From NCBI GenBank assembly GCA_017962605.1, contig JAGCUY010000188.1, forward strand, positions 1 through 64,000: DNA of 64,000 bases, read 5' to 3'. This document shows positions 77 through 61,817 of the stretch, one piece after another (within the stretch, counting starts at the first letter, position 1; every line of letters begins with the position of its first letter). The notes under the pieces are model-generated. The model was given only the letters and a program-made list of their open reading frames with translations. It was not told the origin of the DNA and ran no database searches. This DNA is from Kiritimatiellia bacterium (GTDB lineage Bacteria; Verrucomicrobiota; Kiritimatiellia; RFP12; JAAYLN01). Position numbers and translations under genes: made by a program.

Positions 77-2785
77 TCAATGCCGCGACTTCCGCTCCCC
101 ATTCATGGGAAGGCTCGCCCACGAATCACTAACCCAATACGGACGCAACGGCTCGATTGCAATCATGTCGGGCGTCACCCAGTCGTTCTTGCCATCGGTG
201 CGGGTTGGTGGCAGGAAGTCGAGGACTATCGTGTTTTCGCCATCGTGGAAAAGGCCTTCCTCCGGCTCAATTATGAAAGACACAAAACTGTTTGTGACCT
301 CCGTATTCTCATGCGCGACAGTGTCGTTCACCGTCGTCACGAGCGTGTTGGTGAGCGGCGTCTCCCCTTTGTAGAGGATTTTGTAGCTCATCTGCATTCC
401 GAACTTCCCCGCCGCGCCGTCAGGCAGATTCCAGACAATGGTCTTCGGGCGGTGCAGCGTCCCGCTCCTGTTGCGCCCGACGTAGCGGACGAACTCCTTG
501 AGGTTGTGCGAATCGGGATACCAGATGTCCGAAGCGTATTTCACGGGTTTCCCATTTTCGAGATAAGTCTGGTTCATGGTAGAGTCGGAGGTCGCGTCCG
601 AAATGTCGCTGTCAACGATGCCGGCGCTCCATGCGCCGCCGAGTTCGATGACATCAAATGTCACGCTGCCTGATCCGCCGTCGGTGCGGGTGAGGGTGAG
701 GACATGGTCGCCGATGGTGAACTTCTCGCCGGGAACCCAGATGTAGGCATTGCGGCCGGAGGAGACGGAAAGCGGATCTAGGGCGGCGCCGTCGAGGGCG
801 ACGGCGAGCGTTCCGGAGGCAGAGCTTGTCTGCGCCTTGAAGCGCACCCAGTGCGCGGCGTTCGCCGCATACTTATCAACGGAGAAGGGGATGCGGAAGG
901 TCGCGCCGGGCGTGAGCGTCGTCGGGAAGGCGCGCTTGTCGGAGGCGAGCGGATCGAGCGTCACGGTTGCGCCTGAGGCTGGTGCCGCGCCGCCGAACAT
1001 CTCGACTGTGCAATTCTCCTCGCCGATGCGGAAGAGGTTCGGCGCGCCGCCGCCGAAGGCCTCGCAGACCTCGCGGTCGGAAAGGCACCGATTCCACATG
1101 GCGAACATTTGGATATCACCGCGGAAATTGTCATTGCCATTTTGGCTCCCATAGTAGCGCGGGCCACCGATCCAGATGCTTTTGGGATAGAAGTTTGTCG
1201 TGTGGCTTGAATGGCTGTAGGGCACTTCAAAGTCACGATACCAGCGGGCATTGCCAGGTCGGGCAAGTGATGCGCGAATGGCATGCGCTTCGGCGCGGCC
1301 GTCCACGACGACGGCCACTTCGAGCCATTCGTTTGTCTCGACATAAAGGTCAGTGAGCGTGGATTGGCCATTTCCGAAGATGACCTTGACATAATTGTTC
1401 GTCGTATCCGATGTATTGTTGTTGTTCCGTCCGAAGCCGAAACGGATTTCCTTTTCCGCTCCGCCCTTCGACGTGTCGGTCTTCGTGCACCAGAGCCAGG
1501 AGTTGTTTCCGACGGTACAGAAATCGTCAATGCGGCAACGGAACAGGACGGTCCACTGATTGCCCGTAATCAGCTGCCCCCCTTCCAAGCTCCAGCGCTG
1601 GGAATAGACGTATTGGCCACCGCTTGGGGTCTGCGGGAGATACAGGCATGGCCACGCGACGGTCTTGTTGCCCCATGCCGTGAAGTGGACGTCGTTCGTG
1701 CGGATTAGGAAGCCGGACTGCTGGTAAACAGTCGCGGAACCAGTCGAGTAGTTCAGCTTCTGCGAATTGGACGAGGCAAGGGCGCCGTGGCGGGCGTCAG
1801 GCATCTCGCAGGAGGCGCCGCCTGTGCCGTCGCATTTGCGGGGGACGGAGACGCCGGAGTCAGTGGCGGAGACGTTGCCAGTCCACTTGCCGTCGTTGTT
1901 GGCATCGACGGGGCCGTTGAACCAGAGTATGGCGTCCTGCCAGACGCTGCCCGCCGTAGCGGAAGTCGCGGGAATTGCCGCCTGAATGGCAAGTGCTGAC
2001 GCAAGGGCGGCTGTGGTTCTTGTGGTTATACTTAGGTTCATAGTTTCTCCTTGAGAGTTATCGGTTGAAAAGTTGAAAGGTTGAAAGGTTGAAAGGTTGG
2101 AAGTCTCCGCTTGTCGCGAGTCGCTTGTCTCCTGTCCGGAAGTCTCCGTTGCGGCGGGCGACGACACGCGACTTGCGACACGCGACACGCCGGCTATCCC
2201 CGCGCCAAGCGCGGTAAGGCCGAATAGCAACAGCGCCAGCATCACCGCCTTGCCGCCGGGTTTTCTCGCCGCCACGCCAAGCTTGGCGGCAAGCGCCTTG
2301 CGCGCGTAGTGGAGGCGGCTTTTTACCGTTCCCGTTGGAACGGTCAGGATTTGCGCCATTTTCTTTATCGGCACATCCATGAAGTAGTGGAGCAGTAGCA
2401 CTTCCCTGTCTTCCGGCTCCAGCTTGCCAAGCGCCTCTCGGACTAGCGAACGGTCAAGGCTGTTGTAGATTTCCTCCTGCGCGGCTTCGTCAATGATGTC
2501 TGGAATCTCACCAGTGCAGATTTCATTCCTGTTCGACTTGCGGCGCTGGTCCAGGGAATGGATGTTTTTCAGAATCTGGCACATCCAGCCAAAGAAAGCC
2601 GATTGCTCAAGATAGTCGTCTATGCCCTCCACCACTGCGGCGAAGGTGCGGTTGACCAGCTCTTCGGCGTCGGACGGGCTGTCGCAAAAGCGCATGGCAA
2701 GGGTCATCAGCCCGGCTTTGTATTCGCTTTCAAGCCTTTTCGCGCCGCTTTCGCGGTTTGTCCTAAGTTCTTCTACAATGTCCAT
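77..2785 (-). CDS. ECF sigma factor with membrane anchor, joined in frame to an exported LamG-type protein
   Basis: The frame is 902 codons long and holds two proteins. Residues 1-170 are an ECF sigma-70 factor: region 2 near 30-85 (AEELVNRTF, WMCQIL, then basic DQRRK) and region 4 near 110-165 with a helix-turn-helix ending TGTVKSRLHYAR. A membrane helix lies at about 178-200. It is followed by a linker encoded by repeat DNA (about 205-246, including LSTFQPFNFST). Residue 249 is a Met with its own Shine-Dalgarno, and it opens a signal peptide and a secreted part with a LamG/concanavalin A-like region (about 385-570). The C-terminal third is unassigned. I infer two products from one frame, a tethered sigma factor and an exported binding protein, but a true fusion cannot be excluded. 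A paralogue with the same layout lies at 38799-41597. The start is MDIVEEL, shared with the paralogue; no strong SD is visible before it. Confidence 0.8.
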   Translation of the reverse strand: MDIVEELRTNRESGAKRLESEYKAGLMTLAMRFCDSPSDAEELVNRTFAAVVEGIDDYLEQSAFFGWMCQILKNIHSLDQRRKSNRNEICTGEIPDIIDEAAQEEIYNSLDRSLVREALGKLEPEDREVLLLHYFMDVPIKKMAQILTVPTGTVKSRLHYARKALAAKLGVAARKPGGKAVMLALLLFGLTALGAGIAGVSRVASRVSSPAATETSGQETSDSRQAETSNLSTFQPFNFSTDNSQGETMNLSITTRTTAALASALAIQAAIPATSATAGSVWQDAILWFNGPVDANNDGKWTGNVSATDSGVSVPRKCDGTGGASCEMPDARHGALASSNSQKLNYSTGSATVYQQSGFLIRTNDVHFTAWGNKTVAWPCLYLPQTPSGGQYVYSQRWSLEGGQLITGNQWTVLFRCRIDDFCTVGNNSWLWCTKTDTSKGGAEKEIRFGFGRNNNNTSDTTNNYVKVIFGNGQSTLTDLYVETNEWLEVAVVVDGRAEAHAIRASLARPGNARWYRDFEVPYSHSSHTTNFYPKSIWIGGPRYYGSQNGNDNFRGDIQMFAMWNRCLSDREVCEAFGGGAPNLFRIGEENCTVEMFGGAAPASGATVTLDPLASDKRAFPTTLTPGATFRIPFSVDKYAANAAHWVRFKAQTSSASGTLAVALDGAALDPLSVSSGRNAYIWVPGEKFTIGDHVLTLTRTDGGSGSVTFDVIELGGAWSAGIVDSDISDATSDSTMNQTYLENGKPVKYASDIWYPDSHNLKEFVRYVGRNRSGTLHRPKTIVWNLPDGAAGKFGMQMSYKILYKGETPLTNTLVTTVNDTVAHENTEVTNSFVSFIIEPEEGLFHDGENTIVLDFLPPTRTDGKNDWVTPDMIAIEPLRPYWVSDSWASLPMNGERKSRH
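2039..2052 (-). promoter_or_regulatory. Internal ribosome-binding site and start codon for the LamG protein
   Basis: On the minus strand AAGGAG (2052-2047) is followed after five bases by ATG (2041-2039), inside the long sigma/LamG frame. A signal-peptide-like sequence (MNLSITTRTTAALASALA) begins at that ATG. The same SD, spacing and MN- start recur at 40812-40825 in the paralogue, which supports real internal initiation. Confidence 0.7.
2063..2100 (-). repeat. Octamer array (CTTTCAAC type) within the sigma/LamG frame
   Basis: About 4.5 tandem copies of an 8-base unit, TTGAAARG on the plus strand and CYTTTCAA in the coding direction. Since 8 is not a multiple of 3, three units give an eight-residue period, seen as LSTFQPFN. 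It sits directly before the internal RBS. Confidence 0.85.
2101..2192 (-). repeat. Degenerate GTCGC(A/T)-type short repeats in the sigma linker
   Basis: Short 7-8 base units built on GTCGC and CGCGAC recur here, for example GCGACTTGCGACACGCGACA. They encode the Ser/Ala/Arg/Thr-rich linker after the membrane helix. The paralogue carries the same type of repeat at the same place (about 40877-40965), with different exact units. Confidence 0.6.
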
Positions 2786-2850
2786 TGCAGATATAAAATA
2801 TAAATTCTCCCAATAAAAGGATAACTTATCTGGGCAAAAAGGTTCAAATA

Positions 2851-6901: not shown

Positions 6902-6951
6902 GGTTGAAAAGTTGAAGGGTTGAAAGGTTGAAAAGTTGAAAAGTTGAAAGG
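6902..6951 (-). repeat. Octamer array before the symporter start codon
   Basis: Six tandem 8-base units, CTTTTCAA/CCTTTCAA in the sense of the symporter gene, ending about ten bases before its ATG. The unit and the sense orientation match the arrays near 2063, 31545, 32489, 33280, 40836 and 61769. Confidence 0.9.
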
Positions 6952-31544: not shown

Positions 31545-31640
31545 CCAACTTCCCAACTTCTCAACTTTTCAACCTCTAAACATTCAGGGCGCTTGCGCCC
31601 AACCTTTCAACCTTTCAACTTTTCAACTTCCCAACTTCCC
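31545..31640 (+). repeat. Octamer array with embedded hairpin before mlaE
   Basis: About nine CTTTTCAA/CCTTTCAA/CTTCCCAA-type units in the gene's sense, ending nine bases before the mlaE ATG. The array is interrupted by GGGCGC-TT-GCGCCC (31587-31600), the same hairpin core found in the REP-like palindromes at 45501-45673. Confidence 0.85.
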
Positions 31641-32488: not shown

Positions 32489-32531
32489 CCAAACTTTTCA
32501 ACCTCTCAACTTTTCAACTTCCAATCCAACC
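32489..32531 (+). repeat. Octamer array between mlaE and mlaF
   Basis: About five CTTTTCAA/CCTCTCAA units in the gene's sense, running up to the GTG start of mlaF with no SD. Confidence 0.85.
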
Positions 32532-33279: not shown

Positions 33280-33340
33280 TCTCAACTTTTCAACTTTTCA
33301 ACTTTTCACCTTTTCAACCTCTCAACTTCCCACCTTCCCT
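33280..33340 (+). repeat. Octamer array between mlaF and mlaD
   Basis: About six CTTTTCAA-type units plus degenerate CCACCTTC ends, again in the gene's sense and with no SD before the mlaD coding region. Confidence 0.85.
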
Positions 33341-35994: not shown

Positions 35995-37275
35995 CTAAAT
36001 CGCCACGACGGCGAATGGCTCCTCCGCTTTGCAGGCGAATGGCTTTACGCCTTTGAGTCCGGTCGCCCTTATTTCGACCGCAGGACCGTAATTGCGCAGG
36101 ATGCTGCCGTCAACGCCTTCGACCTCGACATCAGAGAGGTCAATGTTCAGGTTTGCCCCGCGAACAAGCTCGTTTTGGCCCTTGGCGAACGAAAGGCGGC
36201 AGTTCCTCAGCGCGAGCGACAGCGGAACCGCTGCGTCTCCGTAGGCGCAGAGGGGAAACTTCAGCCCGGTTGCCGTGACGTTCTCGAACGTGATGCCGTC
36301 CATGGGGACGCCTGTTGACCAAACCTCGTTCCCGGAATAGTTGTACTGCAGGAACCTGTCGGCGCCGGAAACGCGGATGTTCCGCAGCACGATGTCGCCG
36401 GCGTTCTCCTTGAGCCCATATCCGCTCATCGAGAAATAGGTGAAAAGCGAGAGCATGTTGCGGCGGCCCGCCCCAGGCTCCCCGTCGCCGCCGGACTTCT
36501 TCACGGCGTCGGGCAGAGAGCCGCGGAACGGGAAGTCGCAGGGGCCGTGCACGACGCAGTTCTCCGCAAGGACGTGCCTGCCGCCGAAGCGGAACGCGCT
36601 GCACGCCGACGAGATGTCGCAGTCGCACACGTGGACGTTCGAATTTCCGAAGCCCGCTACGGCGTCGTCGCCGGTACGAAACCGGCACTTTGAGATTTCA
36701 ACCGAGTCGCACTGCCGCAAATGGATTCCATCGTGGCCCGCATCGATAGCCAGGTCTTCGAACCGAAGGTTCCGCCCCATCCTGAAATGGTGCGCCCAGT
36801 TGCCCGCGCGGCGCATGGCATATCCGCGGAAAACGCAGTTCGTCGCGAACATCGCCGTGATGCCGTGCGCGCCACGATACCCCTCCTCGCCCTGAGGGTC
36901 GAAGGTGTTGCAGCCGTCTATCACGCTTCCCGGCTCGCCTATGATCGCCGCGTTTGTTGCGCGATGCAGCCTGATTACGGCGCGGTACCAGTTCCGCATG
37001 TAGTCGTTGGGGTCACCTGGCTTCGGACGTTCCACCGGCTCAAGCGCGTCATTCGCCCAGCCGTCGTAGTCCGCCAGATTGCGCGACGCCTGAAGCACCG
37101 CGCCGGAACGAAGGAGAAGCGTGACATTGGAACGAAGGCGTATGGAGCCGATCCCGTGGACGCCGGACTCGACCTCCACGATTCCTCCGCCTCTGCGCCA
37201 TGCATCGTCTATGCGATCCTGGAGGGTGGCGGTCTCAAGCTCCGCCGCCTCAAGGACGGGCGAATCCCTTTTCAC
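35995..37275 (-). CDS. GH28-like right-handed beta-helix protein
   Basis: 426 residues from GTG 37275 (GGGAGG seven bases upstream), which overlaps the GH5 stop as GTGA. The fold is a parallel beta-helix resembling polygalacturonases: GGGIVEVESGVHGIGSIRL near 28, GHDGIHLRQC near 205, and FRTGDDAVAG near 220, where the aspartates correspond to the GH28 GDD motif. The NTD and GHG motifs are not clear, so activity on pectin is uncertain. No signal peptide is seen at this start. It probably acts with the coupled GH5. Confidence 0.7.
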   Translation of the reverse strand: MKRDSPVLEAAELETATLQDRIDDAWRRGGGIVEVESGVHGIGSIRLRSNVTLLLRSGAVLQASRNLADYDGWANDALEPVERPKPGDPNDYMRNWYRAVIRLHRATNAAIIGEPGSVIDGCNTFDPQGEEGYRGAHGITAMFATNCVFRGYAMRRAGNWAHHFRMGRNLRFEDLAIDAGHDGIHLRQCDSVEISKCRFRTGDDAVAGFGNSNVHVCDCDISSACSAFRFGGRHVLAENCVVHGPCDFPFRGSLPDAVKKSGGDGEPGAGRRNMLSLFTYFSMSGYGLKENAGDIVLRNIRVSGADRFLQYNYSGNEVWSTGVPMDGITFENVTATGLKFPLCAYGDAAVPLSLALRNCRLSFAKGQNELVRGANLNIDLSDVEVEGVDGSILRNYGPAVEIRATGLKGVKPFACKAEEPFAVVAI

Positions 37276-38786
37276 GGCAAAGCCTCCCTTCGGCGCGTCA
37301 AGCCGTCGAGGAGTGCGCGTTTGCGGGGGTTGTCGGCGGAAGGGCGCATGTGGCCGATGTCGTCGCCTTCGAGTTCGACGCTCCAGCCAGGCCATTCGCG
37401 GAAGGCGTGGTAGGTCCAGTCCCATCCGTATTCGTCGAAGATGTCGATGCAGTCGCGCAGGTATTCGGCGGCGCCTGGCGCCCAGGCGACGGCGCTGAAC
37501 TCGCCGATGTAGATGCGGACGCCGTGCCGCAGCTGGAACTCGCGCAGCGGGCGCAGCCGTTCACGCAGCCATTCCTTGCCGAGCCCCTTCGCCGGATCGG
37601 GATAGACCAGGCCGCGCTCGTTTTCCTGTATTCCCTGGTGCGTGTAGAGCAGCGGAAGATACATGTGCGCCTCGTAAATGACATTGTCGAACGGGAGCGG
37701 CTCCATGTTCGCGTATGTCTCCGGCGAATCCCATTCGTTCGACTCTGCGATGATCGTCGCGTCCGGGTCGATTTCGCGGATCGCCGCGGCGGCGCGGCAT
37801 TGCAGCGTCCAATACGTCTCCGGCGATTCGCGCACCTGGAAGGGCTCGTTGCAGAGATCGTAGCCGTAGATGCCGGGGATGCCGCGCAGCCTTGTGGCGA
37901 TGCGCCGCCAGGCCTCGACGAAGGCATCGGCGAACTCAGGCTCGAAGAACATGTTCGCCTCGGCGTCCCGGTTCGCGCCGCCTGGCGCCGTGTGCAGATC
38001 GACCGCCACGCGGATTCCGCGAGCTGCGGCGCGAGGCAGGATTTCGCGCTCTATGCGATCCAGGTTCAAGTCCAGCCAGCGGAAATACGCCGCCATGTCT
38101 CGGATGTTGAAGGTGGCGGAGTCGTCCTTGACGATCTGGAAGCGGACGAGAGACACGCCCCATTCCGCAAGCGTGTCGAACGCTTTTTCGGAAATTGGCT
38201 GCGGCGGCAGCATCACGCCGCGAAGGGGGATGCCGCCAGCGCCGCGGCATGGCGACCGCAAATCGACGACGCGGAACGACGCAAGGTCGAAGACATGGCG
38301 CCCGGAAGGGTTTTCAACGCCGACGGCGACGGTCATCGTCTCCTCGAGTTCGCCCAGCTTCAGGCACCAGACCCGCGTGGCGAGCGCGTTGGCCGGGACG
38401 GCGTTCGTGGCGGTCGCGGCTTTCGCCCACTTCGTGGGGCGGACGTGCGTCGCGCCGCCGCGCTCCTTCACGGTCGCGCCGAAGCGGACGCGGCACGGCG
38501 GCTCATTGGTCGCGCGTTCCTCCGGCTCGCGCTCGCGCCGGAATCCGACGGTCATCCAGAAGTCGCGGAGACCGCGCATCGGCACTTCCGCCGTCGCGCC
38601 TGAGAACCCCTCGCGGCGCTCCCCCGGCGGCACGTCAATGACGAGAATGCCATTGCGGATTTCCGCGCTTCCCGTAGGGGTCCAGTCCGGCTGGGGGGAC
38701 TGGGTTTCGTCTGTCGCGGCCAGGCCCGTCGCGCATGACAACCCCACCGCCGCCAGAATGGTAGCGGCTGCTGCAATGCGTTTCAT
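37272..38786 (-). CDS. Exported GH5-type (cellulase family) glycoside hydrolase
   Basis: 504 residues; signal peptide at 1-24. An N-terminal beta domain (about 30-185) precedes a TIM barrel (about 195-495). The acid/base glutamate is in YGYDLCNEPFQ near 305 and the nucleophile glutamate in IYIGEFSAVAW near 430, matching GH5. The product is expected to cleave a beta-linked glucan or mannan. AGGAGAGG precedes the ATG. It starts 12 bases after the sigma/beta-helix ORF ends and is coupled to the GH28-like gene. A paralogue lies at 41918-43555. Confidence 0.88.
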   Translation of the reverse strand: MKRIAAAATILAAVGLSCATGLAATDETQSPQPDWTPTGSAEIRNGILVIDVPPGERREGFSGATAEVPMRGLRDFWMTVGFRREREPEERATNEPPCRVRFGATVKERGGATHVRPTKWAKAATATNAVPANALATRVWCLKLGELEETMTVAVGVENPSGRHVFDLASFRVVDLRSPCRGAGGIPLRGVMLPPQPISEKAFDTLAEWGVSLVRFQIVKDDSATFNIRDMAAYFRWLDLNLDRIEREILPRAAARGIRVAVDLHTAPGGANRDAEANMFFEPEFADAFVEAWRRIATRLRGIPGIYGYDLCNEPFQVRESPETYWTLQCRAAAAIREIDPDATIIAESNEWDSPETYANMEPLPFDNVIYEAHMYLPLLYTHQGIQENERGLVYPDPAKGLGKEWLRERLRPLREFQLRHGVRIYIGEFSAVAWAPGAAEYLRDCIDIFDEYGWDWTYHAFREWPGWSVELEGDDIGHMRPSADNPRKRALLDGLTRRREALP

Positions 38787-38798
38787 GCTGCGCCTCTC

Positions 38799-41597
38799 CT
38801 ACCGAAGCGAGATGACCGTCGCCAGCACGGGCGACAGATAGATGCCGTTGTTCTCGTAGCGCACCTGCCAGTTGCCGGGAAGGTTAGTCCCTGCGAACTG
38901 TGTGCCTGAATATCCGCTTGGCGCATCGACAATCTTGTAGAAGCCGCGTGGATTGTTCTTCGAGAACAGCGAAATGTCCTCAACCTTCAGCGAAAGCGAG
39001 GCGATGCTCTGCCCTGCGGCAGCGAACTTGACGCATCCGCAGCCGCTTGCGTCGCCCTTGATTTCGAGATCGCCGGAGAGCGAACACGGCTTGTTGAGCG
39101 TCAGAGTCCCGTAGGTGTCGTCGAAGACCGGCGCGACCGCGCCCGCAACCGTCAGGTTGGAATTGTTCGCGACGGTCCCACTGCCTTCGAGCCGCGCGAC
39201 CGTCTGCGCCATGTCGGTCGGCGTCGCGGTCTGGCTGCTGAAATCGGCCGTCGTGCCGGGACCGACCTGGAGCGTGGTTCCGGCGGGCAGGACGTTCGCC
39301 GTGCGGCACTGGAGCGTCCCGTTCGACCCTTCAAGGCGCGTCGGGCCGTTGTAGGTCGAGCCGGCGGCGGTCAGCACGACGAGGTTGCCTCCGGATAGAA
39401 TGCACGTGAGGCCGCCGTCGGTTTCGCCATCGGCGACGCCGGACGAGAGCGCCTTCGGGAAGGAGATGCTCTTCCCGTTGGAGGTGTCAAGCACGGCTCC
39501 GCCTGCCTCGACGAGGAACGATATGCCGTTCCAGGTCGTACTTGATGCGTTTGCGATGGCGTCGCCGTCACTCGATGTCCTCTGGAGCCGGCCTCCGTTG
39601 AAGTGAATCGCCCCGGCGCTGCCGGAGGTTCCTATCTGGTTGACGCGCAGGACGCCGTTCGTGCAGAGAAAGAGTTCTCCGCCCGTCCCCGTGCCGGTCT
39701 GGCTCAGGCGGAACGTGCCGCAGTGCAGAAGTCCTCCGTCGCGCACCGTTACCTTTCCGGGGCTGCCGTATGCATTGAGGAAAAGGACGTTTGTCGCAAT
39801 CACTGATCCGCCGGCCACGTCGAGCTGACCGTAACTCTGCGTTTCAAAGTATCGGGTGTCGCTCTGGCTGTTGACGAGTTCTCCGCCCGAGACGAGCATA
39901 CGGCCGACGCGCGTCTTGTATGCGCTTCCGTTGCCGACAATGTAGATCGGGGCGTTCTCGTTGTCCGCTGCCGTCCCCCTTGCCACGCTCGTCCGTCCGC
40001 CGGCGATTTCCAGCTGGCTTATCACTTTAATCCGTCCGACGCTGTTTGTGCCGGACAGTTTCGCCAAACCAGTCCAGGTGGTGGCGTCCCGCCCGACTTG
40101 AAGCCTGGTTCCGGACGGCAGACCGTATGTGGCGTTGACGTCCCCGACGATGTCGCCCTTGATTTCGATGGTGTCGCCAGTCGCAATCCAGAACGTCGCG
40201 CCGTCAACAACCCGAATCGTCCGGTTCGCGTGAAGCGTTTTCGCGCCATTCTCCGCGTAGAGCGCGACGTTTCCGCCCTGCCAGACGATGTTCGTCTGCT
40301 TCTCGACCGGCACCGCGCCAAACGCCCTGTCGCCAATATTCTTGAGAGCGAAGGCATAGAGGCTGGAACTTGATCCTTTTACCCATGTCCCGCCCGTATG
40401 GGTGTTCGCGACAGTGAAGTATAGGGACCCCTTGGCGTCGAAGCGCAGGCCGCCGCCGTTGTCCGTGAGCGGAACGTTGAAGGATGTTTCGCCCGTCCGC
40501 GAGAACCAGTCCGTCCACGACATCGTTCCCGTGCCGTTGAAGGTGTATTTCCGCTTGCCCGTGACATTGCCGGCGATGCGGTTCCCGGAAACGGCAATCG
40601 TATGGTCGGCTGCCTCGTCGTCGGAGAAGACCGCGTCGCTGCCGTCCTGCCAGGGCCTTGGAGTCGATGAGGCGGAATTGGTCCAGCATTCCGTGGAGTC
40701 GTCCCACGTGCCGGATGTCCCGCCAGCCCAGTAAAGCGTGTCGGCCGCCGCGCCGGTCGCGAGGGTTGCCGCAGCCAGCATGGCGGCGGTGCGTGAGGTT
40801 TTGCTTATGTTCATGTTTTCTCCTTGTGAGTTATCGGTTGAAAAGTTGAAAGGTTGAAAGGTTGAAAAGTTGGAAGCCTCCGTTTGTCGCTTGTCGCGTG
40901 TCGCTGGCCCTGAGGCCTTTGCTTCAGAAGACGACATGCGACTTGCGACAAGCGACATGCCAGTATCGGCTTGGTTCTGCGCCTCGCCGGAGGCGGCGAG
41001 GTTCCATACCGCCGCGCCGAGCGCGGTGAGGCCGCAGAGCAGCAGCGCAAGCAGCACGGCCTTGCCGCCGGGTTTCTTAACCGCTACGCCCATCTTCGCC
41101 GCAAGGACGCTCCGGGCATAATGCAGGCGGCTTTTCACCGTTCCCGCAGGTACGGCCAGTATCTTGGCGAGCTTCGGTATCGGAATCTCCATAAAGTAGT
41201 GGAGCAAAAGGAGTTCCCGCATTTCCGTGGGCATTTCGGCGATGGCGTCGCGCAAAAGCGAGTAGTCGAGGTTCCGGTAAATCGCCTCCTGCGCGTCGTC
41301 ATCGACCATTTCGGGAACCACGCCCGGATAGACCACGGTCTTGTTCGACTTGCGCTTGTTGTCGCGCTTGCGGAGGTTCACCAGTATCTGGCACATCCAG
41401 GCGAAGAAGGCCGACTGCTCAAGATAGTCGTCAATGCCATTGATGACTTCGGCGAAGGTGCGGTTCACAAGTTCCTCGGCATCGCCTTCGTCATTGCAGA
41501 AGCGGCGGGCGAGGGTCATCAGCCCCGCCTTGTATTCGGTTTCCAGCCGCTTGGCACCGCTTTCGCGATCCCGTCTAAGTTCTTCGACAATGTCCAT
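38799..41597 (-). CDS. ECF sigma factor with membrane anchor, joined in frame to an exported beta-helix (autotransporter-repeat) protein
   Basis: 932 residues from MDIVEEL; reading back to 41627 adds ten residues through a hairpin and lacks support. Residues 1-170 are an ECF sigma factor about 70% like that at 77-2785 (same AEELVNRTFAEV, WMCQIL and TGTVKSRLHYAR blocks). A membrane helix is near 178-200, and a repeat-encoded linker runs to about 258. Met262 has its own SD and opens a signal peptide. The remaining 640 residues are a beta-helix with autotransporter-associated repeats (TYNGPTRLEGSNGTL, LTLNKPCSLSGDLEIKG). It is followed 12 bases later by GH5, then GH28, as one likely operon. Confidence 0.8.
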   Translation of the reverse strand: MDIVEELRRDRESGAKRLETEYKAGLMTLARRFCNDEGDAEELVNRTFAEVINGIDDYLEQSAFFAWMCQILVNLRKRDNKRKSNKTVVYPGVVPEMVDDDAQEAIYRNLDYSLLRDAIAEMPTEMRELLLLHYFMEIPIPKLAKILAVPAGTVKSRLHYARSVLAAKMGVAVKKPGGKAVLLALLLCGLTALGAAVWNLAASGEAQNQADTGMSLVASRMSSSEAKASGPATRDKRQTEASNFSTFQPFNFSTDNSQGENMNISKTSRTAAMLAAATLATGAAADTLYWAGGTSGTWDDSTECWTNSASSTPRPWQDGSDAVFSDDEAADHTIAVSGNRIAGNVTGKRKYTFNGTGTMSWTDWFSRTGETSFNVPLTDNGGGLRFDAKGSLYFTVANTHTGGTWVKGSSSSLYAFALKNIGDRAFGAVPVEKQTNIVWQGGNVALYAENGAKTLHANRTIRVVDGATFWIATGDTIEIKGDIVGDVNATYGLPSGTRLQVGRDATTWTGLAKLSGTNSVGRIKVISQLEIAGGRTSVARGTAADNENAPIYIVGNGSAYKTRVGRMLVSGGELVNSQSDTRYFETQSYGQLDVAGGSVIATNVLFLNAYGSPGKVTVRDGGLLHCGTFRLSQTGTGTGGELFLCTNGVLRVNQIGTSGSAGAIHFNGGRLQRTSSDGDAIANASSTTWNGISFLVEAGGAVLDTSNGKSISFPKALSSGVADGETDGGLTCILSGGNLVVLTAAGSTYNGPTRLEGSNGTLQCRTANVLPAGTTLQVGPGTTADFSSQTATPTDMAQTVARLEGSGTVANNSNLTVAGAVAPVFDDTYGTLTLNKPCSLSGDLEIKGDASGCGCVKFAAAGQSIASLSLKVEDISLFSKNNPRGFYKIVDAPSGYSGTQFAGTNLPGNWQVRYENNGIYLSPVLATVISLR
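40812..40825 (-). promoter_or_regulatory. Internal ribosome-binding site and start codon for the beta-helix protein
   Basis: Minus strand: AAGGAG (40825-40820), five bases, then ATG (40814-40812). The spacing is identical to that at 2039-2052. The flanking sequence CGATAACTC(T/A)CAAGGAGAAA is shared by both ORFs. Confidence 0.7.
40836..40876 (-). repeat. Octamer array within the second sigma ORF
   Basis: Five units of CTTTTCAA/CCTTTCAA in the coding sense, encoding NFSTFQPFNFST. A degenerate GTCGC-type array follows upstream in the gene (about 40877-40965), the same order of two arrays as in the first sigma ORF. Confidence 0.88.
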
Positions 41598-41600
41598 CAT

Positions 41601-41632
41601 TATATGGAAGCGTAAAAACGCCCCCATATAAT
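41601..41632. repeat. Hairpin at the 5' end of the second sigma gene
   Basis: TTATATGG (41601-41608) pairs with CCATATAA (41625-41632), with an inner GCGT/ACGC stem. It sits two bases upstream of the sigma start codon and could hide the start or bind a regulator. The first sigma gene also has a strong inverted repeat upstream (2851-2884), but of different sequence and position. Confidence 0.6.
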
Positions 41633-41671
41633 AATCGCCAATCGGGCATCATCGGTTCGATAAAAAATTAG

Positions 41672-47977: not shown

Positions 47978-50620
47978 CTACCGCACCGTTATCACAAAGG
48001 CGTCAGGAACTTCGGTGCGGTCGGGGGCCTGCATGAACTGCGCAGGTGCGAGCGCGTCAGCTGTGATGCGCACGTCGTCGATGAGGCCGGTGAAGCCCGT
48101 GCCGATGCCGAACGTCGCCGAGAGCGCCGGCAACGAGGCGCCCGACGCCAGTGCGCCGGAGGCCGCCTGGACGCCATCAACGTAGAGGCGGGCTTGGTCT
48201 GCGCCGGTGGCGTCGGCGTCGATGACGAGCGCGTAGTGGTGCCAGTCACCGTCGGTGCCGCCGAGTGCAGTCGCGTCGGAGTTGAGCGCGTCGGCGTAGG
48301 GGACGTAGCGCGAGGCCGCGCCGCCGGTGGCGGCGATGGAGGCGGAGAACGATCCGGCATAAGTGCCGTTGCCGAAGGAGAAGAGTGCCATGTCCGCTGC
48401 GGCGGAATTGGCCTTCGCGAAGCACTCCACCGTGACGGAGCGGCAGCCGGAGAGGTCAAGGGCCGCCGTCGTCGCGAGGGTTGCGCCTGAGGCGAACTGC
48501 GCCGCGCCATTCTTCTTGGACAGCCCGGTTGCCGTGAGAGCGTGCCCGTTGCCGGACTTGTCGCTCCAGCCGCTTCCGGAGAAGTCCCAGTAGGCGATGA
48601 TGTTGGCGACAGGAGGCTCGCGCGTGAGCTTGAATGCCCCGGGCGCAAGCGCCAGCGGCGTGACGATGATTTCGGAAATCTTGCCGTCGAAGGTCGTTGC
48701 CTGATTGGAGCCGTATGACGAACCGCCGCCGATGCAGAGTTTTTGGTTGAGCAGGGCGGAGAGCGTGGCCGTGTTGTTCATGGATTGGTTCTGCTTCACG
48801 CCGTCGATGTAAAGGATGCTCTCCTTCTCGTTCGCCTGCGTTACGTCAACGACATAGGCGATATGGTGCCAACCGGCGGACGCATAGGGGGATGAGGACG
48901 TCAGACCCGTAATGCCGTCCTGCTGCCAGCTGGTGGTTGTTCCGAACTGCGAGTAGATGGCTTTCCCGTTTTTGTACACGACGAAGCTTCCGGGCGTATT
49001 TCCAGCCGTGTTTTCCAACGCGAACAGCACACCGAACTTGTCGAGGGAGTTCATCTGATAGCGGCACTCGATGGTCGCGCGACGGTATGCGGAGAGATCC
49101 AGCGTGGATGCCGTCTTGAGCGTCGCGCCGGAGCCGTTGAAGACCGCCGCACCGCCGGCGAAAGTCACGTTGCTATTCACGAGGTCGTTGCCGTTGCCCG
49201 TGACATCGACAAGCGGCGTCTCGGAATCGAATTTCCAGTGCGCGACCGGCGCGTTCACGGAGGGTGCCTTCAGAAATTCTGATGGCGACAGCGCGTAGGG
49301 CATGATGCGAACGTCATCGAACTCCGCCGTCGCCCAGAGTATGTAGTTGGCACGTGCTCCTACGAAGAAGGAGGCGTCGCAAAGCAGTGAAAGCGTCGAT
49401 TTCGTGTCTGTTCCGTTGACGGGGAGTTTGACGCCATCGAGGTATGTGACCAGTAGATCCTCGCCGGTCTTTGCGGGATCGTAAACCATTGCCACATGGC
49501 GCCAGCGTCCGTCGTTGGCGGCGGGCGTTCCCGTGGACTTGTCCACATTGTAGCCGTCCTCAGTGCGAAGACCGCTCAAAAGGGTCGTGCAGTTGTCGCG
49601 CAGCGACAAGTGGAACGCACCGATGTTGCCGGTATAGTTGCCGGAGGTTTCCAAGAGTATGCGCGCGTCATCCGCCGTCGATGTCGTGCGGAAGAAGCAT
49701 TCGAACGTGAGGCCGCTCTTGGTGAACTGCGAGAATGGGAATTTAGACGTGGAACCAATGTTGCACGAACCGTTCAGTGACAGTGTGCCGTCGAGATACG
49801 ACGGCGAGGACGACTGCGTAGTGGGCCACGCCAGGTCGTTTCCGTTGCCGGAGACGTCGCTCGGGCCGCTTGCACCGAAGGGATAATAGGCGAAGGCCGG
49901 ATTGGCGGGGGTCATGGCGTCGCCGACCGTCGGGAACTTCAGGAACTGCGAGGGTTCAAGGGCGCCATCGGTGATGCGGATGTCGTCGATGAGTCCCTTG
50001 AAGCCGTTGTCCGGCGAACCGTTGTTGCCGTGTGCGCCAATGTATAGTTTGCGGCTACCGAAGCCAGTGGAGAAGTCGCCGGATGTTTTGAGGGACGAAT
50101 TGGGAATCGGCGTCCCGTCAAGATAGAGCTTCGCCTGATCTGCGCCGGATTTCGAGGCATCCACCACATAGGCTATGTGATGCGGATACGCCGTACTGCC
50201 GGTAAGGTCTTGGACTTCCTGCTGCCAGGTCGATGGCGCAACACGGAATTGTCCATAGAATTTACTATTTTGCTGATACACCACAAACGCGCCTTTTTCG
50301 CTCGCGTCCGATGGTGCGAAGATGTATCCGAAGTTGTTGTTGGCATCAAACCGCACCCAGCACTCGATCGTGAACGACTTGGTCGTGGCGCCGAGGGTGA
50401 CGGGGGCGGTCGTAACAAGATACGACGAACCGTCAAAGAGCGCCGCGCCGTTGGTGAAAGTCACGCCGTGGTTCTCCAGCGTGATGGCGTTGTTGCCCGT
50501 TATGTCCGTGAGGCCGTTGGCGCCAAACGTCCAGTGGGCGACCGTCTGCTGCGCGGTGGCCAGATTTGATGCGGCCAGCGTGACTGCGGCAGCCGCGCCG
50601 ATGGTGAACAGTTTATTCAT
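47978..50620 (-). CDS. Exported protein with four LamG/concanavalin A-like domains
   Basis: 880 residues; signal peptide (MNKLFTIGAAAAVTLAASNL, cleavage near 24). Four tandem LamG-type domains begin near residues 25, 237, 445 and 655, each opening with a strand such as VAHWTFGANGLTDITGN or IAYWDFSGSGWSDKSGN. Each ends with a FDDVRI/IDDIRI strand, followed by a linker like LAPAQFMQAP. AAGGAG precedes the ATG. It is likely a surface glycan-binding protein serving the neighbouring hydrolases. It is followed directly by the PHP gene. Confidence 0.88.
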   Translation of the reverse strand: MNKLFTIGAAAAVTLAASNLATAQQTVAHWTFGANGLTDITGNNAITLENHGVTFTNGAALFDGSSYLVTTAPVTLGATTKSFTIECWVRFDANNNFGYIFAPSDASEKGAFVVYQQNSKFYGQFRVAPSTWQQEVQDLTGSTAYPHHIAYVVDASKSGADQAKLYLDGTPIPNSSLKTSGDFSTGFGSRKLYIGAHGNNGSPDNGFKGLIDDIRITDGALEPSQFLKFPTVGDAMTPANPAFAYYPFGASGPSDVSGNGNDLAWPTTQSSSPSYLDGTLSLNGSCNIGSTSKFPFSQFTKSGLTFECFFRTTSTADDARILLETSGNYTGNIGAFHLSLRDNCTTLLSGLRTEDGYNVDKSTGTPAANDGRWRHVAMVYDPAKTGEDLLVTYLDGVKLPVNGTDTKSTLSLLCDASFFVGARANYILWATAEFDDVRIMPYALSPSEFLKAPSVNAPVAHWKFDSETPLVDVTGNGNDLVNSNVTFAGGAAVFNGSGATLKTASTLDLSAYRRATIECRYQMNSLDKFGVLFALENTAGNTPGSFVVYKNGKAIYSQFGTTTSWQQDGITGLTSSSPYASAGWHHIAYVVDVTQANEKESILYIDGVKQNQSMNNTATLSALLNQKLCIGGGSSYGSNQATTFDGKISEIIVTPLALAPGAFKLTREPPVANIIAYWDFSGSGWSDKSGNGHALTATGLSKKNGAAQFASGATLATTAALDLSGCRSVTVECFAKANSAAADMALFSFGNGTYAGSFSASIAATGGAASRYVPYADALNSDATALGGTDGDWHHYALVIDADATGADQARLYVDGVQAASGALASGASLPALSATFGIGTGFTGLIDDVRITADALAPAQFMQAPDRTEVPDAFVITVR

Positions 50621-50767: not shown

Positions 50768-51631
50768 TCAGGGGGCGAGTCGCTCCACCAGGGAAACAAA
50801 GAAGTCAGGGGTCCAAAGGTCAATGGAGGGGCGGTCGGCGTCTGGAACGAATGGAAGAATATCGTGTCGGGCTTCGTCCCAGTTGATGCGCCTGATGGTT
50901 TCAAGAAGCCGCGCCTTCACCCAGCCGTCATTCGTTGCGATGCCTTCTCCCGCCCAGGGGCCCTGCTGGTCAATGGCGGATGAAAGAAGCGCGTGGTTGA
51001 TTTTCACACCTGCGGAAACATACCAGATGAGGTCGAACCAATCTCGGCCTTTGACGTATGTCCGGCACAGCAGCGCATGCAACTTCCCGGCGAAGGCGCT
51101 TGCTCGGTCGAAGTTGCGGATGGAGACGGGAAATGGAAAATGCAGTTGAGCCGCAGAATATGTCGCCCCCATCGGCGGGTCGGTGTCAACCTCCATTTTG
51201 ATGAGAATCTTCGGCGGTTGTCCTGGACTCCCCTTTCGTCCAACATGGCGCAGTTGGAGAATCCTGACAAGCGAATCGTTTTTGAGAAAACCCTTTTTGA
51301 CGACACTGTCGGCCTTGGATTTATCCCGCACCTCCATCTCCACTCCCATTGAGGCCAGTTCTGTCGCGACTCCTTCCAGGTACGGCGAAAGCGCGAACGC
51401 GGAATCCGGCGCCACAAGCGCGAAGTCAAGGTCTTCCGAAAAACGCCGGACACCCTCGAAAATCCTCAGTTGCGTTCCGCCGTGGAACGCGGCCTTGGCG
51501 AAAAAGCCTGTCCGCGCCAGTCCGGCGAGAATTACCTCCTGGAGGATTTCGCGCAATGCGTTGTATTCCTCGTCCACGCCGGAGCAGTGGTAGCCGTCAA
51601 GGCGGCCCTGAAGTAGTGCGACATTGTTCAT
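50768..51631 (-). CDS. AbiEii-type nucleotidyltransferase toxin
   Basis: 287 residues. The nucleotidyltransferase motif is FHGGTQLRIFEGVRRFSEDL near 47-66, with the metal-binding DLDFA next, as in AbiEii/AbiGii toxins of type IV toxin-antitoxin systems used in phage defence. A later family block is AFAGKLHALLCRTYVKGRDW near 180. Its ATG overlaps the antitoxin stop by four bases, the usual AbiE arrangement. The gap 50621-50767 holds no gene. Confidence 0.88.
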   Translation of the reverse strand: MNNVALLQGRLDGYHCSGVDEEYNALREILQEVILAGLARTGFFAKAAFHGGTQLRIFEGVRRFSEDLDFALVAPDSAFALSPYLEGVATELASMGVEMEVRDKSKADSVVKKGFLKNDSLVRILQLRHVGRKGSPGQPPKILIKMEVDTDPPMGATYSAAQLHFPFPVSIRNFDRASAFAGKLHALLCRTYVKGRDWFDLIWYVSAGVKINHALLSSAIDQQGPWAGEGIATNDGWVKARLLETIRRINWDEARHDILPFVPDADRPSIDLWTPDFFVSLVERLAP

Positions 51632-52272
51632 TTCCCCAATTCCTTTCTCAAGCCTTCCAAAAAGCGCCGCGCCCTGCGCGACTTGTAAACGCCTTCAAGT
51701 TCGTCGAAGTCGCCGGATTGTAGCGATTCGAGGTCTTCCCGCTCAATGCGGAGGCTTCCCTCAAGCGGCTTGGAACCCGTCCAGTCCAGCCCCCGCGACG
51801 CAATGAGGTCTGCAACCGCCTTGAGCGGTTTCGCGATGAGGAAGGTCTGCGGGGAAAGGTCGTCCCCGAGGCTCTCCACGCCGGCCATCAGCGGGAATTG
51901 CTTCAATTGTACGTATGAGAAAAGACCAACTGGGGTTTTTAAAGACCTCTTTCGCCCATACGACACGGACGTGACCAAATGAACGGCCTCGGGAATCCAA
52001 CCGTGAAAGGACAGGGCCGTCTCCATGCTGACGTAGCTGGGGCCATAGGCGAGGTTGGCAAGCAAGAAGCGGTTGATTCCCGCCCGGTTGTATTTCGGCG
52101 CAAGGCAATAGAGGCCGCGCCGGATGTGCAGCACTTCGCCGGACGCAATCGCCCGTTTGACAAGACCGCGGACGGAATTGCGGTTCTTGTCGCCAAGCCA
52201 GACGAGAACATCGCTATAAGAGAAAATTCCCGATTTTGAAAATACAAAAGCCTTGTCCGTCAAAAAATTCAT
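51628..52272 (-). CDS. AbiEi-type antitoxin
   Basis: 214 residues; the N-terminal winged helix (about 15-60: FSYSDVLVWLGDKNRNSVRG and VLHIRRGLYCLAP) binds DNA in AbiEi proteins, giving autoregulation. The C-terminal half is the antitoxin domain (YVSMETALSFHGWIPEAVH). TATTAT ends six bases before the ATG, with no SD. It is translationally coupled to the toxin. Confidence 0.85.
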   Translation of the reverse strand: MNFLTDKAFVFSKSGIFSYSDVLVWLGDKNRNSVRGLVKRAIASGEVLHIRRGLYCLAPKYNRAGINRFLLANLAYGPSYVSMETALSFHGWIPEAVHLVTSVSYGRKRSLKTPVGLFSYVQLKQFPLMAGVESLGDDLSPQTFLIAKPLKAVADLIASRGLDWTGSKPLEGSLRIEREDLESLQSGDFDELEGVYKSRRARRFLEGLRKELGK

Positions 52273-56399: not shown

Positions 56400-59198
56400 C
56401 TACGGCTCGGAATCGGAGTCGCGCCTTGCGACCTCGTAGAGCATCCTCGCGCCGTTCGGGCCTTCCACGGTCGCCGTGAACGAGAGTTTTCCATCGATGA
56501 CGGCGGAGGGTATCTCACCGCGCCGCCGGCCTGTTGTGTCGAGTTCCCACACGGAAAAGGCGGAGGGGTCGGCAAGCGCGAGTTCGATTCTGGCGGAGCC
56601 GTTGCGGACGAGTGGCGGATACGCGCCCCACTTCACGAGTATCTTCCGTTCGCGGTCCGCATAGACGTTGCCGTCGGCCTGGGCGTCGGTGAGATGGGAG
56701 ACGAGAATGCGCGAAGAACGCGGGAGCGGCTCGCCATCGAGCGACGACGCCCACACCGTTGCCGGAGCAACGGCGCCGCAAATCTCGAAACGCAGCGGGC
56801 CGGCGTCGAGCGAACCGGACGGGACGAACCCGCCGGCTGTGCGCGGCGTGACGATGCGCATGCTCCCGCGCTCCGCATCAAAGGAGAACGCCTCGTTCGG
56901 CGGTGGATCGAATGGCGGCGTTTCCGAGTCACGCACTTCGGCCAGGTCAAACGTCCGCATGCCCTGCGGCGGCTCTTTCCCGGCCGCGAGGGCCACACGG
57001 ACGCGCCATGCGGCGCTGCTCCATTTCGGCGTGATTCCTGCCGCGGCGGTTTTCGCGTCCTTGGCCGCGTCGGGCGGGACTGAGAGCGCGAACGAGGATT
57101 CGGGCGGCGCGAGGTCGCCACGAAGGAAGAGGCAGATGCTGGCCCTGTCCGACGCCTGTCCGAGGGGGTCTGTCCCAACGTCGAAATAGCCGGGGTAGCC
57201 CGTCCTGTCCTTCACGACGTTGGTCCCGTGCGCGTATGCGAAGCGCCAAAGCCCGTCCCAGTCCTGCAACGCACCCATCGCGCCGGTCATGATGCCGCCG
57301 ACTCCGCGATACATTCCGGGGCCGGAGAAATTCCACTCCGTGATGCAGAACGGCTTGGATGCGTGGCGGGCGAAGGCGCTCCACGCCATCGGAAGGAAGC
57401 CCGTCTTCAGCGGATTGGCGTTCGGCAGCGTCGATGGCTGCTCCCACTTCCTTGCGGGGAATCGCGGATGGTCAACGTAGAAGTGGTCGTCGGCGTAGTC
57501 GTAGAGCTCCTCCCCCGCCAGCTCCATCCCGCAGTTGTAGGGGCCGCAGTTCTGGTTCGTGAAAAGCGCCTTGACGCCCAGTCCGCGCAGGAACTCCTTT
57601 TGCCTGGCGACAAGGGAGCGCTCCATGTCCGCCATGAACATGATCCGCTCGTCGCCGGAGAAGGCCGACGGGTCGTCTGGGCAGCCTTTGGCGAAATCGG
57701 GGTCTTCCGCCCGCCTCCGTGCCAACCATTCGCGCCACGCGGTCTTGGCCGGTTCGAGCTTGCGGAGTTCGTCCCAGCACCAGAGAGGCTGCGCCTCGTT
57801 GATGAGCGAAATGAGCGGCATCGCCGGTTCGTCGGCGTAGCGGCGTCCGGTGTAGGGGTTGACGTGTTCGAGGAAGTTCCGCGCGAAGGCGGCCCAGTTC
57901 TCGAACGCCGGTTCGTAAACGGCGACTAGGTTCTTGTAGAGCCGGCCGTCGATTCTGCCGTCGCGGTCGATGCCGATGTCGCGCCATAGGACGGGACGGC
58001 TTGTGTAGAGGTCGGTCGTCGCGTAGATACCGCGCTGGAATGCGCGGTAGAGGAGATAGTCCAATCTGTCGATGTCGTCGCTGACGACATCGACAGAGGT
58101 TGAAAAGTTGAAAGGTTGAAGGGTTGAAAGGTCAGAATCCGATTGCTGCGGGACTTTTTGACTTTTCAACTTTTCAACCTTTCGACTGGCGTGGGCGTTA
58201 GCCCACGCCCCGTCGTAGTGGTGGATTCGCACGGAGTTGTAGCAAAGGCGGGCGAGGCGGTCAACCAGTTCGTCGGCGGTTTTCTCGTCGAGGAAGTTCG
58301 CACCAAAGCAGAGGTTAACCCCGTAGAAGCGCTGCGGGACGCCGGGGCGCCCCTCGAACTCGAAATGGCCGTCCTCCGAAACCTTCAGCCATCCGTGCCT
58401 CCCCGCCGGTGCGTCAAGCATCCCCATGCAGGAGAAGTCGAGGGCGCTTCCGGGTTCGATATCCTTTGCGTAGTCGAGCGGAATCCATTCCTTGCCGGCG
58501 CGTATGATGTTTGGCCGCGCAAACGAGACGCCAACGCCGCCGCTGGCCGACACGGAGCAGGCGAAGTCGCGCCGCGCCCCATTCGGGAACTCCGCTCCGG
58601 CGTCCGGCGGCGTGATGCGGAGGCTGAAGGTGTCCGACCACTTCCTGTTGTCCTGGATGTAGAGCGACATATCGCCGTCGAACGACAAGGTGAAGGATTC
58701 GCCGCCGTCGGGCGAGGAGAACGTCACTCCGTTCGTCTTGGTTCGGCAGAGGGCCTCATCGCCGAAGGTCTCTGGGAACACGCCCTTCTTTCCATCCGTG
58801 AACTCCCACGTCCAATCGCCGTATGCGGAACGCGGCAGGGAGAGCGAGAGCGCGATTGCAGAAGGTTTCTGGTCCGCTTCGGAAACGAGCGAAACTTCAT
58901 ACGCCGCACCTCCGCCTTCAAGCGGGCGAAGCGAAGACGTGCCGCTGGCGACAACTTCGCCGGATCGGAAGACCTTGAAGGGCGCGATGCCAACGGGCGC
59001 GTCATCGGACGCGACGTCCTCGCGGACGCCTTCCGAAGACCCCGCCCAGTTTTCGTGGTGGATCACGGCGCACAGCCTTGCGCCAGACTCGCCGAAGCGA
59101 ACGCCGCCGAAATACTCAAGTTCCAGATCAAGCCCCGCCGCAGCGCAGAAAAGCGGCTGCGCCGCAGCGGCAATCAGACATACCGCGACACGTTTCAT
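56400..59198 (-). CDS. Large exported GH-A-clan (GH5-like) glycoside hydrolase
   Basis: 932 residues from ATG 59198; signal peptide MKRVAVCLIAAAAQPLFC. The N-terminal beta domains (about 20-270) precede a TIM-barrel region near 280-700: GVPQRFYGVNLCFGAN near 288, acid/base candidate PLISLINEAQPLWCWDEL near 445, nucleophile candidate FCITEWNFSGPG near 615. C-terminal beta domains end at 932. Family assignment within clan GH-A is uncertain. About 40 residues near 335-375 (SRKVEKLKSQKVPQQ, LSTLQPFNFST) are encoded by two inverted octamer arrays (58098-58185) inserted in frame in the barrel. Confidence 0.75.
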   Translation of the reverse strand: MKRVAVCLIAAAAQPLFCAAAGLDLELEYFGGVRFGESGARLCAVIHHENWAGSSEGVREDVASDDAPVGIAPFKVFRSGEVVASGTSSLRPLEGGGAAYEVSLVSEADQKPSAIALSLSLPRSAYGDWTWEFTDGKKGVFPETFGDEALCRTKTNGVTFSSPDGGESFTLSFDGDMSLYIQDNRKWSDTFSLRITPPDAGAEFPNGARRDFACSVSASGGVGVSFARPNIIRAGKEWIPLDYAKDIEPGSALDFSCMGMLDAPAGRHGWLKVSEDGHFEFEGRPGVPQRFYGVNLCFGANFLDEKTADELVDRLARLCYNSVRIHHYDGAWANAHASRKVEKLKSQKVPQQSDSDLSTLQPFNFSTSVDVVSDDIDRLDYLLYRAFQRGIYATTDLYTSRPVLWRDIGIDRDGRIDGRLYKNLVAVYEPAFENWAAFARNFLEHVNPYTGRRYADEPAMPLISLINEAQPLWCWDELRKLEPAKTAWREWLARRRAEDPDFAKGCPDDPSAFSGDERIMFMADMERSLVARQKEFLRGLGVKALFTNQNCGPYNCGMELAGEELYDYADDHFYVDHPRFPARKWEQPSTLPNANPLKTGFLPMAWSAFARHASKPFCITEWNFSGPGMYRGVGGIMTGAMGALQDWDGLWRFAYAHGTNVVKDRTGYPGYFDVGTDPLGQASDRASICLFLRGDLAPPESSFALSVPPDAAKDAKTAAAGITPKWSSAAWRVRVALAAGKEPPQGMRTFDLAEVRDSETPPFDPPPNEAFSFDAERGSMRIVTPRTAGGFVPSGSLDAGPLRFEICGAVAPATVWASSLDGEPLPRSSRILVSHLTDAQADGNVYADRERKILVKWGAYPPLVRNGSARIELALADPSAFSVWELDTTGRRRGEIPSAVIDGKLSFTATVEGPNGARMLYEVARRDSDSEP
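58098..58207. repeat. Inverted pair of octamer arrays plus hairpin inside the large hydrolase gene
   Basis: TTGAAAAG/TTGAAAGG/TTGAAGGG units (58099-58132) are followed by the opposite strand form CTTTTCAAC (58160-58185), so the arrays can pair. A perfect nine-base hairpin GGCGTGGGC-GTTA-GCCCACGCC (58186-58207) follows. The frame stays open across all three. Confidence 0.85.
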
Positions 59199-61768: not shown

Positions 61769-61817
61769 ATTCAACTTTTCAACCTTTCAACCTTTCAACT
61801 TTTCAACCTTTCAACTC
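61769..61817 (+). repeat. Octamer array before the cassette B FGE gene
   Basis: Six units of CTTTTCAA/CCTTTCAA in the gene's sense, ending about 12 bases before the ATG at 61829, with no SD between. Confidence 0.9.

Follow-up and report, generated by a model that had tools for sequence, protein, structure and literature searches.

ECF sigma factors in frame with exported surface proteins: candidate one-gene signalling units in Kiritimatiellae

RsgI-type anti-sigma factors use an extracellular polysaccharide-binding ectodomain to control the sigma factor for glycoside hydrolase genes; RsgI is a separate anti-sigma factor for SigI, a sigma factor of a different type from the ECF group. In the ECF52/ECF53 proteins, such as SCO4117 of Streptomyces, a single polypeptide contains the sigma factor, one or more transmembrane (TM) helices, a low-complexity exported linker and a carbohydrate-binding or glycosyl-hydrolase domain (PMC5826349, PMC8999054, PMC10766802). 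These proteins bear a zinc-finger anti-sigma domain, and for them proteolytic release has been proposed and autoregulation suggested (PMC5826349, PMC8999054, PMC10766802). ECF52 has been reported only from Actinobacteria, and S. coelicolor has one copy of it (PMC5826349, PMC8999054, PMC10766802). IutY (ECF243) of Pseudomonas putida, a sigma/anti-sigma fusion in iron cell-surface signalling, also joins a sigma factor and a membrane segment in one polypeptide and is activated by Prc and RseP proteolysis (PMC8999054). Our literature search, which was confined to open-licence papers, returned no paper on ECF fusions in Kiritimatiellae.

We analysed a window of 64,000 nucleotides from a Kiritimatiellia bacterium (positions 1 to 64,000 of contig JAGCUY010000188.1, assembly GCA_017962605.1). 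A sequence-only reading of this window had proposed that two paralogous open reading frames (ORFs) each run without a stop from an ECF sigma factor through a membrane helix and a repeat-made linker into a signal-peptide protein. We confirmed this layout in both ORFs (Table 1), as well as the identical spacing of their internal Shine-Dalgarno (SD) sequence and start codon (AAGGAG-N5-ATG, 5 nt).

Table 1. Positions of the features of the two ORFs and of the repeats in the window
Feature	Position	Strand	Basis or remark
First ORF	77-2785	-	902 aa; sigma, TM, linker and surface cargo in one frame
-35 element TGAACCTTT, candidate own promoter of first ORF	2838..2846	-	Gibbs motif, 75 upstream regions
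-10 element GTTATCCTTT, first ORF, 12-nt gap	2816..2825	-	Gibbs motif
ECF sigma domain (regions 2 and 4), aa 1-170, first ORF	2276..2785	-	profile matches
Predicted single TM anchor, about aa 180-200, first ORF	2186..2248	-	sequence and KD19
Repeat-made linker (VSRVASRVSS... STFQPFNFSTDNSQGET), first ORF	2042..2185	-	open and K/R-poor in the used frame only
Internal SD AAGGAG, first ORF	2047..2052	-	
Internal ATG (2041-2039), signal peptide MNLSITTRTTAALASALAIQAAIPATSATA and LamG-like surface cargo, first ORF	80..2041	-	
Second ORF	38799-41597	-	932 aa; further in-frame ATG upstream at 41627
-35 element CGAACCGAT, second locus	41651..41659	-	Gibbs motif
-10 element GCGATTATTA, second locus	41629..41638	-	Gibbs motif
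ECF sigma domain, second ORF	41088..41597	-	profile matches
Predicted single TM anchor, about aa 180-200, second ORF	40998..41060	-	sequence and KD19
Repeat-made linker, second ORF	40815..40997	-	AF2: without structure, very low pLDDT
Internal SD AAGGAG, second ORF	40820..40825	-	
Internal ATG (40814-40812), signal peptide and all-beta, probably beta-helical cargo, second ORF	38802..40814	-	
C-terminal tail ATVISLR, second ORF	38802..38822	-	common to most family cargoes
Exported GH5 enzyme, downstream in the same operon as second ORF	37272..38786	-	PF00150, 3.9e-26
TTTCAACC repeats	2064-2102, 6911-6949, 31605-31627, 32496-32510, 33288-33326, 40837-40867, 58099-58186, 61777-61815		

Architecture, extent and linker frame of the family

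Sigma-70 regions 2 and 4 were clear in both window ORFs (Pfam PF04542, PF04545 and PF08281 over cut-off), and both regions scored above the curated cut-offs, as expected of ECF (group IV) sigma factors. The NCBIfam sigma70-ECF E-values were 4.5e-21 for the first ORF and 6.8e-17 for the second, and the TIGR02937 scores were 75.2 and 61.6 bits against a cut-off of 42.9. In both ORFs a strong TM segment (KPGGKAVxLALLLxGLTALGA) comes no more than about 10 residues after the sigma domain, and the repeat-made linker comes next. An AF2 model of the second ORF placed a helix at residues 178-201, in a low-confidence part; the sigma part of the model was also of low confidence, the alignment being shallow, and the model was left out of the sigma analysis. 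The exported parts had been read as LamG in the first ORF and beta-helix in the second. The former proved to be a weak match under the cut-off (PF13385, 25.6 bits; cut-off 27.6), and the latter is modelled as all-beta, its best Foldseek matches being beta-helical autotransporter passengers with low TM-scores.

The two ORFs had been suggested to represent a modular device of sigma factor and cargo. This suggestion was borne out on a larger scale, with 18 family members in the genome rather than the two noted. The sigma part had 18 strong paralogues, 17 of them with long open frames, and none contained a stop within the match; one short full-length sigma match and an additional 46-aa fragment both run up to the end of a contig. 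The fused family accounted for 18 of the 21 Sigma70_r4_2 (ECF-type) matches in this genome, and among gut Kiritimatiellae, where related genomes contain many further members, the fused gene occurs in up to 18 copies per genome. A sigma match was present in 78 of 162 genomes of the order, many of these being unfused relatives, and in a phylum sample of 388 genomes the strong matches were confined to the same order. Named relatives were Kiritimatiellae or Verrucomicrobia metagenome-assembled genomes, many of them from ruminant gut.

What follows the sigma part was tabulated for 72 loci from 10 genomes, each with a full sigma part, a TM segment and a readable linker. At 71 of the 72 loci the sequence was in frame from the sigma part via the TM and linker to the Met of the internal signal peptide, even though the cargoes were unrelated and the linkers genus-specific (STFQPFN, GTGGTGE, STASTVST and NAKSTENTEG). 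Thus the finding that was to have counted against the sequence-only reading, a stop between the sigma and surface parts in most homologues, did not emerge. At the sole exception (G050_C1) the stop overlaps the internal ATG (ATGA), so that a coupled two-gene form exists. KD19 of the first TM segment exceeded 1.6 in 71 of 71 loci, predicting a membrane helix; the internal signal peptide was weaker (median 1.36 versus 2.24).

Over 5191 linker codons there were no stops in the used frame compared with 59 and 106 in the other two, and K plus R made up 4.1% of residues in the used frame versus 23.2% and 24.5% (p about 2e-13); these statistics are descriptive rather than exact probabilities, as the loci were chosen to have an in-frame Met and are related by descent, so that counts are not fully independent. 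A K/R-poor used frame is what the positive-inside rule leads one to expect of an exported segment. The linkers of the closest pairs differed by indels of 18, 15, 18/3/42, 45 and 9/78 nt, mostly multiples of 3; several alignments also showed runs of indels that were not, mostly in repeat tracts or diverged pairs in which gap placement was uncertain. In this genome the linkers contain a dispersed repeat, TTTCAACC, with 25 matches in the window versus 0.01 expected. Its unit is 8 nt in the linkers and wherever else arrays were measured, so free gain or loss of units would break the linker frame, and the repeats lying in linkers preserve it. Selection on the linker frame is thus well supported by stops, K plus R content and indels. 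From these sequence patterns we conclude that the linker is translated, with a composition that fits export. The 18 paralogues, together with the stop counts and K plus R content per frame, rule out an open frame arising by chance.

Candidate promoters and their covariation with the sigma factor

A Gibbs motif search of the regions upstream of 75 sigma starts, carried out without protein information, yielded a bipartite motif consisting of [TC][GC]AAC..., a gap of 12 at most loci, and G[GC]TA... (13.0 bits versus 8.6-9.2 in shuffles). A candidate ECF-type bipartite promoter, identified by motif and covariation, precedes the family sigma genes.

Covariation between sigma factor and promoter was determined for 45 non-redundant loci. 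The -35 bases covaried with sigma region 4, most strongly with residues 156, 135 and 152, and the -10 bases covaried with region 2, most strongly with residue 79, with little cross-coupling of -35 with region 2 or of -10 with region 4. Partial Mantel tests gave r = 0.47 (p = 0.0005) for -35 with region 4 given region 2 and r = -0.14 (not significant) with region 2 given region 4; for -10 the values were r = 0.43 (p = 0.0005) with region 2 given region 4 and r = 0.07 (p = 0.075) with region 4 given region 2. Pairs of loci that share region 2 and differ in region 4 tend to have the same -10 and different -35 elements. This covariation supports self-recognition, and each sigma factor most likely reads its own promoter. 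A housekeeping promoter is unlikely, since the promoter halves track the sigma factor's own regions 4 and 2. The -35 elements in one genome (G037) also count against it: those of a divergent sigma clade were mostly CTCACC- or CACACC-like, whereas those of the main clade were TGAACC or CTATCG.

Inspection by eye of the leaders between -10 and ATG (for example, window positions 2786-2815 and 41598-41628) revealed a seeming short inverted repeat and no SD at many loci. The sigma start codon of the first ORF lacks a strong SD.

Internal start, surface cargo and proposed mechanism

The sequence-only reading had left open whether the product is a fusion or the cargo is made by re-initiation. Each now has independent support, the former from selection on the frame and the latter from selection on the internal SD, and the two are not mutually exclusive. 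Median anti-SD energies were -6.4 for the internal ATG, -3.0 for the sigma start and -2.2 for other in-frame Mets (p = 3e-23). The codon phase of the internal SD core varies between loci, the internal segments mostly retain a charged n-region and an AxA motif, and a start of this kind is also seen at cargo genes that stand alone (L239 and L243). Selection on the internal SD-ATG is thus well supported, and the strong SD, its varying codon phase and the stand-alone genes indicate that a second, free exported cargo product is probably made from the internal start.

Cargo domains vary and include LamG-like, glycine-rich, phosphodiesterase, LRR and beta-helix types; when checked for carbohydrate-binding modules, some cargoes were LamG-like and others were of the remaining types. 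Most cargoes end in [GAP][FT]-hydrophobic-[RK], the last residue being K or R in 54 of 67. The first window cargo lacks this tail and ends in NGERKSRH, and unfused exported proteins can bear it. At most loci the product of the downstream gene begins with a signal peptide, and GH5, GH39, amylase-like and GDPD enzymes are among these products; the GH5 gene in the window begins 12 nt past the stop of the second ORF.

The window also contains an unfused exported protein (47978-50620, minus strand) with seemingly several LamG domains and the C-terminal tail of the family (DAFVITVR), and no sigma gene was found adjoining it. Upstream of this LamG-like gene, two overlapping ORFs (50768-52272, minus strand) resemble by eye an AbiE-type toxin-antitoxin pair. 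In three family members (L097, L101 and L071) the cargo, apart from the tail, is only about 85 aa long; downstream come a separate exported protein and a gene whose end resembles the window GH5.

Several unfused sigma relatives adjoin short anti-sigma-like membrane proteins, a label that is our reading of the sequence rather than a profile match. On contig C187 a separate sigma gene overlaps a gene for an anti-sigma-like TM protein that has the same linker, SD-ATG, signal peptide and tail; this fusion of the surface module to an anti-sigma-like protein supports a signalling role. Many genomes of the order also encode relatives of about 600 aa consisting of sigma, TM and a cyclase-like domain. 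These arrangements suggest a path from a sigma/anti-sigma pair to the fusion, the surface module going along with the part that controls sigma. At one further locus (G000:C119:1188-1346, L212) a different sigma factor is directly followed by a Ser/Thr protein kinase-like gene.

Our preferred reading, which we consider probable, is that each ORF constitutes a one-piece self-regulating surface-signalling unit that makes tethered and free copies of its cargo. In such a unit the ECF sigma factor, in which no anti-sigma domain was recognised, would be anchored in the inner membrane through the TM helix at its own C-terminal end, beyond which an exported, flexible, K/R-poor linker would lead to the surface protein. 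The sigma factor would read the promoter of its own operon, in which an enzyme for export is also encoded, in many cases a glycoside hydrolase (GH5, GH39 or amylase-like). From the same mRNA, the strong internal SD-ATG and signal peptide would yield the surface protein a second time, now as a free exported copy. The tethered copy would most likely act as the sensor: in response to a bound ligand, or to the state of the surface protein, the sigma domain would be set free by proteolysis and would then amplify its own operon. The architecture, linker-frame selection, internal SD selection and specificity of sigma for its own promoter are well supported at the level of sequence, whereas production of both products, the signal, proteolysis and surface location are what we infer. 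M50 and S41 protease genes are present in the genome; as both are widespread, including in controls, they are weak evidence for proteolytic release.

Insertion of the TM helix with its N terminus inside would mean that the later signal peptide meets a chain already exported, which makes the topology of the full-length cargo uncertain. This awkward topology is one argument for an alternative that we regard as unlikely, namely that sigma and cargo are made only as separate proteins by internal initiation or translational coupling, the fusion being rare or degraded and the frame merely keeping ribosomes moving. The strong internal SD with its signal peptide, the unfused cargo genes with the same start and the ATGA overlap in G050_C1 also fit such an arrangement. 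However, coupling does not need a shared frame, yet one is present at 71 of 72 loci, and K/R depletion in the used frame only implies a translated, exported linker. Moreover, the surface module also occurs in frame with an anti-sigma-like protein. Conversely, the internal SD-ATG could be left over from an ancestor in which the cargo had a gene of its own, with only the tethered full-length protein being of importance. Selection on frame, indels and charge and the relatives of about 600 aa agree with this account, but we consider it improbable, since the SD is still strong across genera and in differing codon phases and most internal segments keep the charged n-region and AxA motif. That the shared frame is a by-product of stop-less intergenic repeats copied along with the genes draws on the dispersed repeats shared by the linkers and the rest of the window, but this idea is already contradicted and scarcely tenable, as these linkers have stops and are K/R-rich in their other two frames, a change in the number of 8-nt units would break the frame, and different repeats in other genera give the same result.

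An extension of the one-piece signalling unit, which we offer tentatively, is that a cell could contain up to 18 private, mutually insulated units. In each, one frame would give a tethered sensor and a free working copy under its own sigma/promoter pair, with cargo and promoter specificity reshuffled by recombining regions 2 and 4 with the matching promoter half. Judged from the sequence, each copy has the look of a sense-and-respond unit complete in itself and placed ahead of exported, often sugar-degrading, enzymes. If true, little-studied gut bacteria would make widespread use of one-gene cell-surface signalling in place of a sigma/anti-sigma/receptor trio. With the 45 non-redundant natural sigma/promoter pairs, the choice of -10 and -35 sequences by regions 2 and 4 can be tested directly, and the pairs could serve as a source of insulated switches. 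The layout of frame and internal start allows the idea of a sensor copy and an effector copy of the same protein to be tested with one mRNA. This one-gene layout was described in no paper that we found in the open-licence literature, to which the search was confined, and the candidate self-read promoter and sequence-level sigma/promoter covariation of this family are new here. The sequence-only reading had noted neither this promoter nor the common C-terminal tail, the exported enzymes encoded downstream or the anti-sigma-like form of the surface module.

Comparison with known systems

As in canonical pairs of an ECF sigma factor and a membrane anti-sigma factor, which are a candidate for the ancestral state, the sigma factor appears to be under membrane control. 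In canonical pairs, however, the anti-sigma factor is a separate gene, whereas the Kiritimatiellae sigma factor has its own anchor and bears the surface protein. The mode of working proposed here resembles that of RsgI, the two being compared by description only.

Like ECF52/ECF53, the family has a predicted TM helix and exported C-terminal part, as judged by KD19 and the K/R-poor linker. Unlike these proteins, the fused ORFs had no zinc-finger or other anti-sigma Pfam match between sigma and TM, and the family, in which cargo is exchangeable, runs to as many as 18 paralogues and has an internal SD, an internal signal peptide and a common C-terminal tail. The lack of an anti-sigma match also distinguishes the fused ORFs from IutY, as do their downstream genes, which encode mostly exported enzymes and do not form an iron context. 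Neither a large surface cargo nor an internal cargo start is described for IutY in the review PMC8999054; the Kiritimatiellae family has both. Because it has no recognised anti-sigma domain, we keep this family apart from ECF52/53 and IutY rather than filing it under them. These two are nonetheless the nearest described kinds, and by analogy the Kiritimatiellae family probably works like them.
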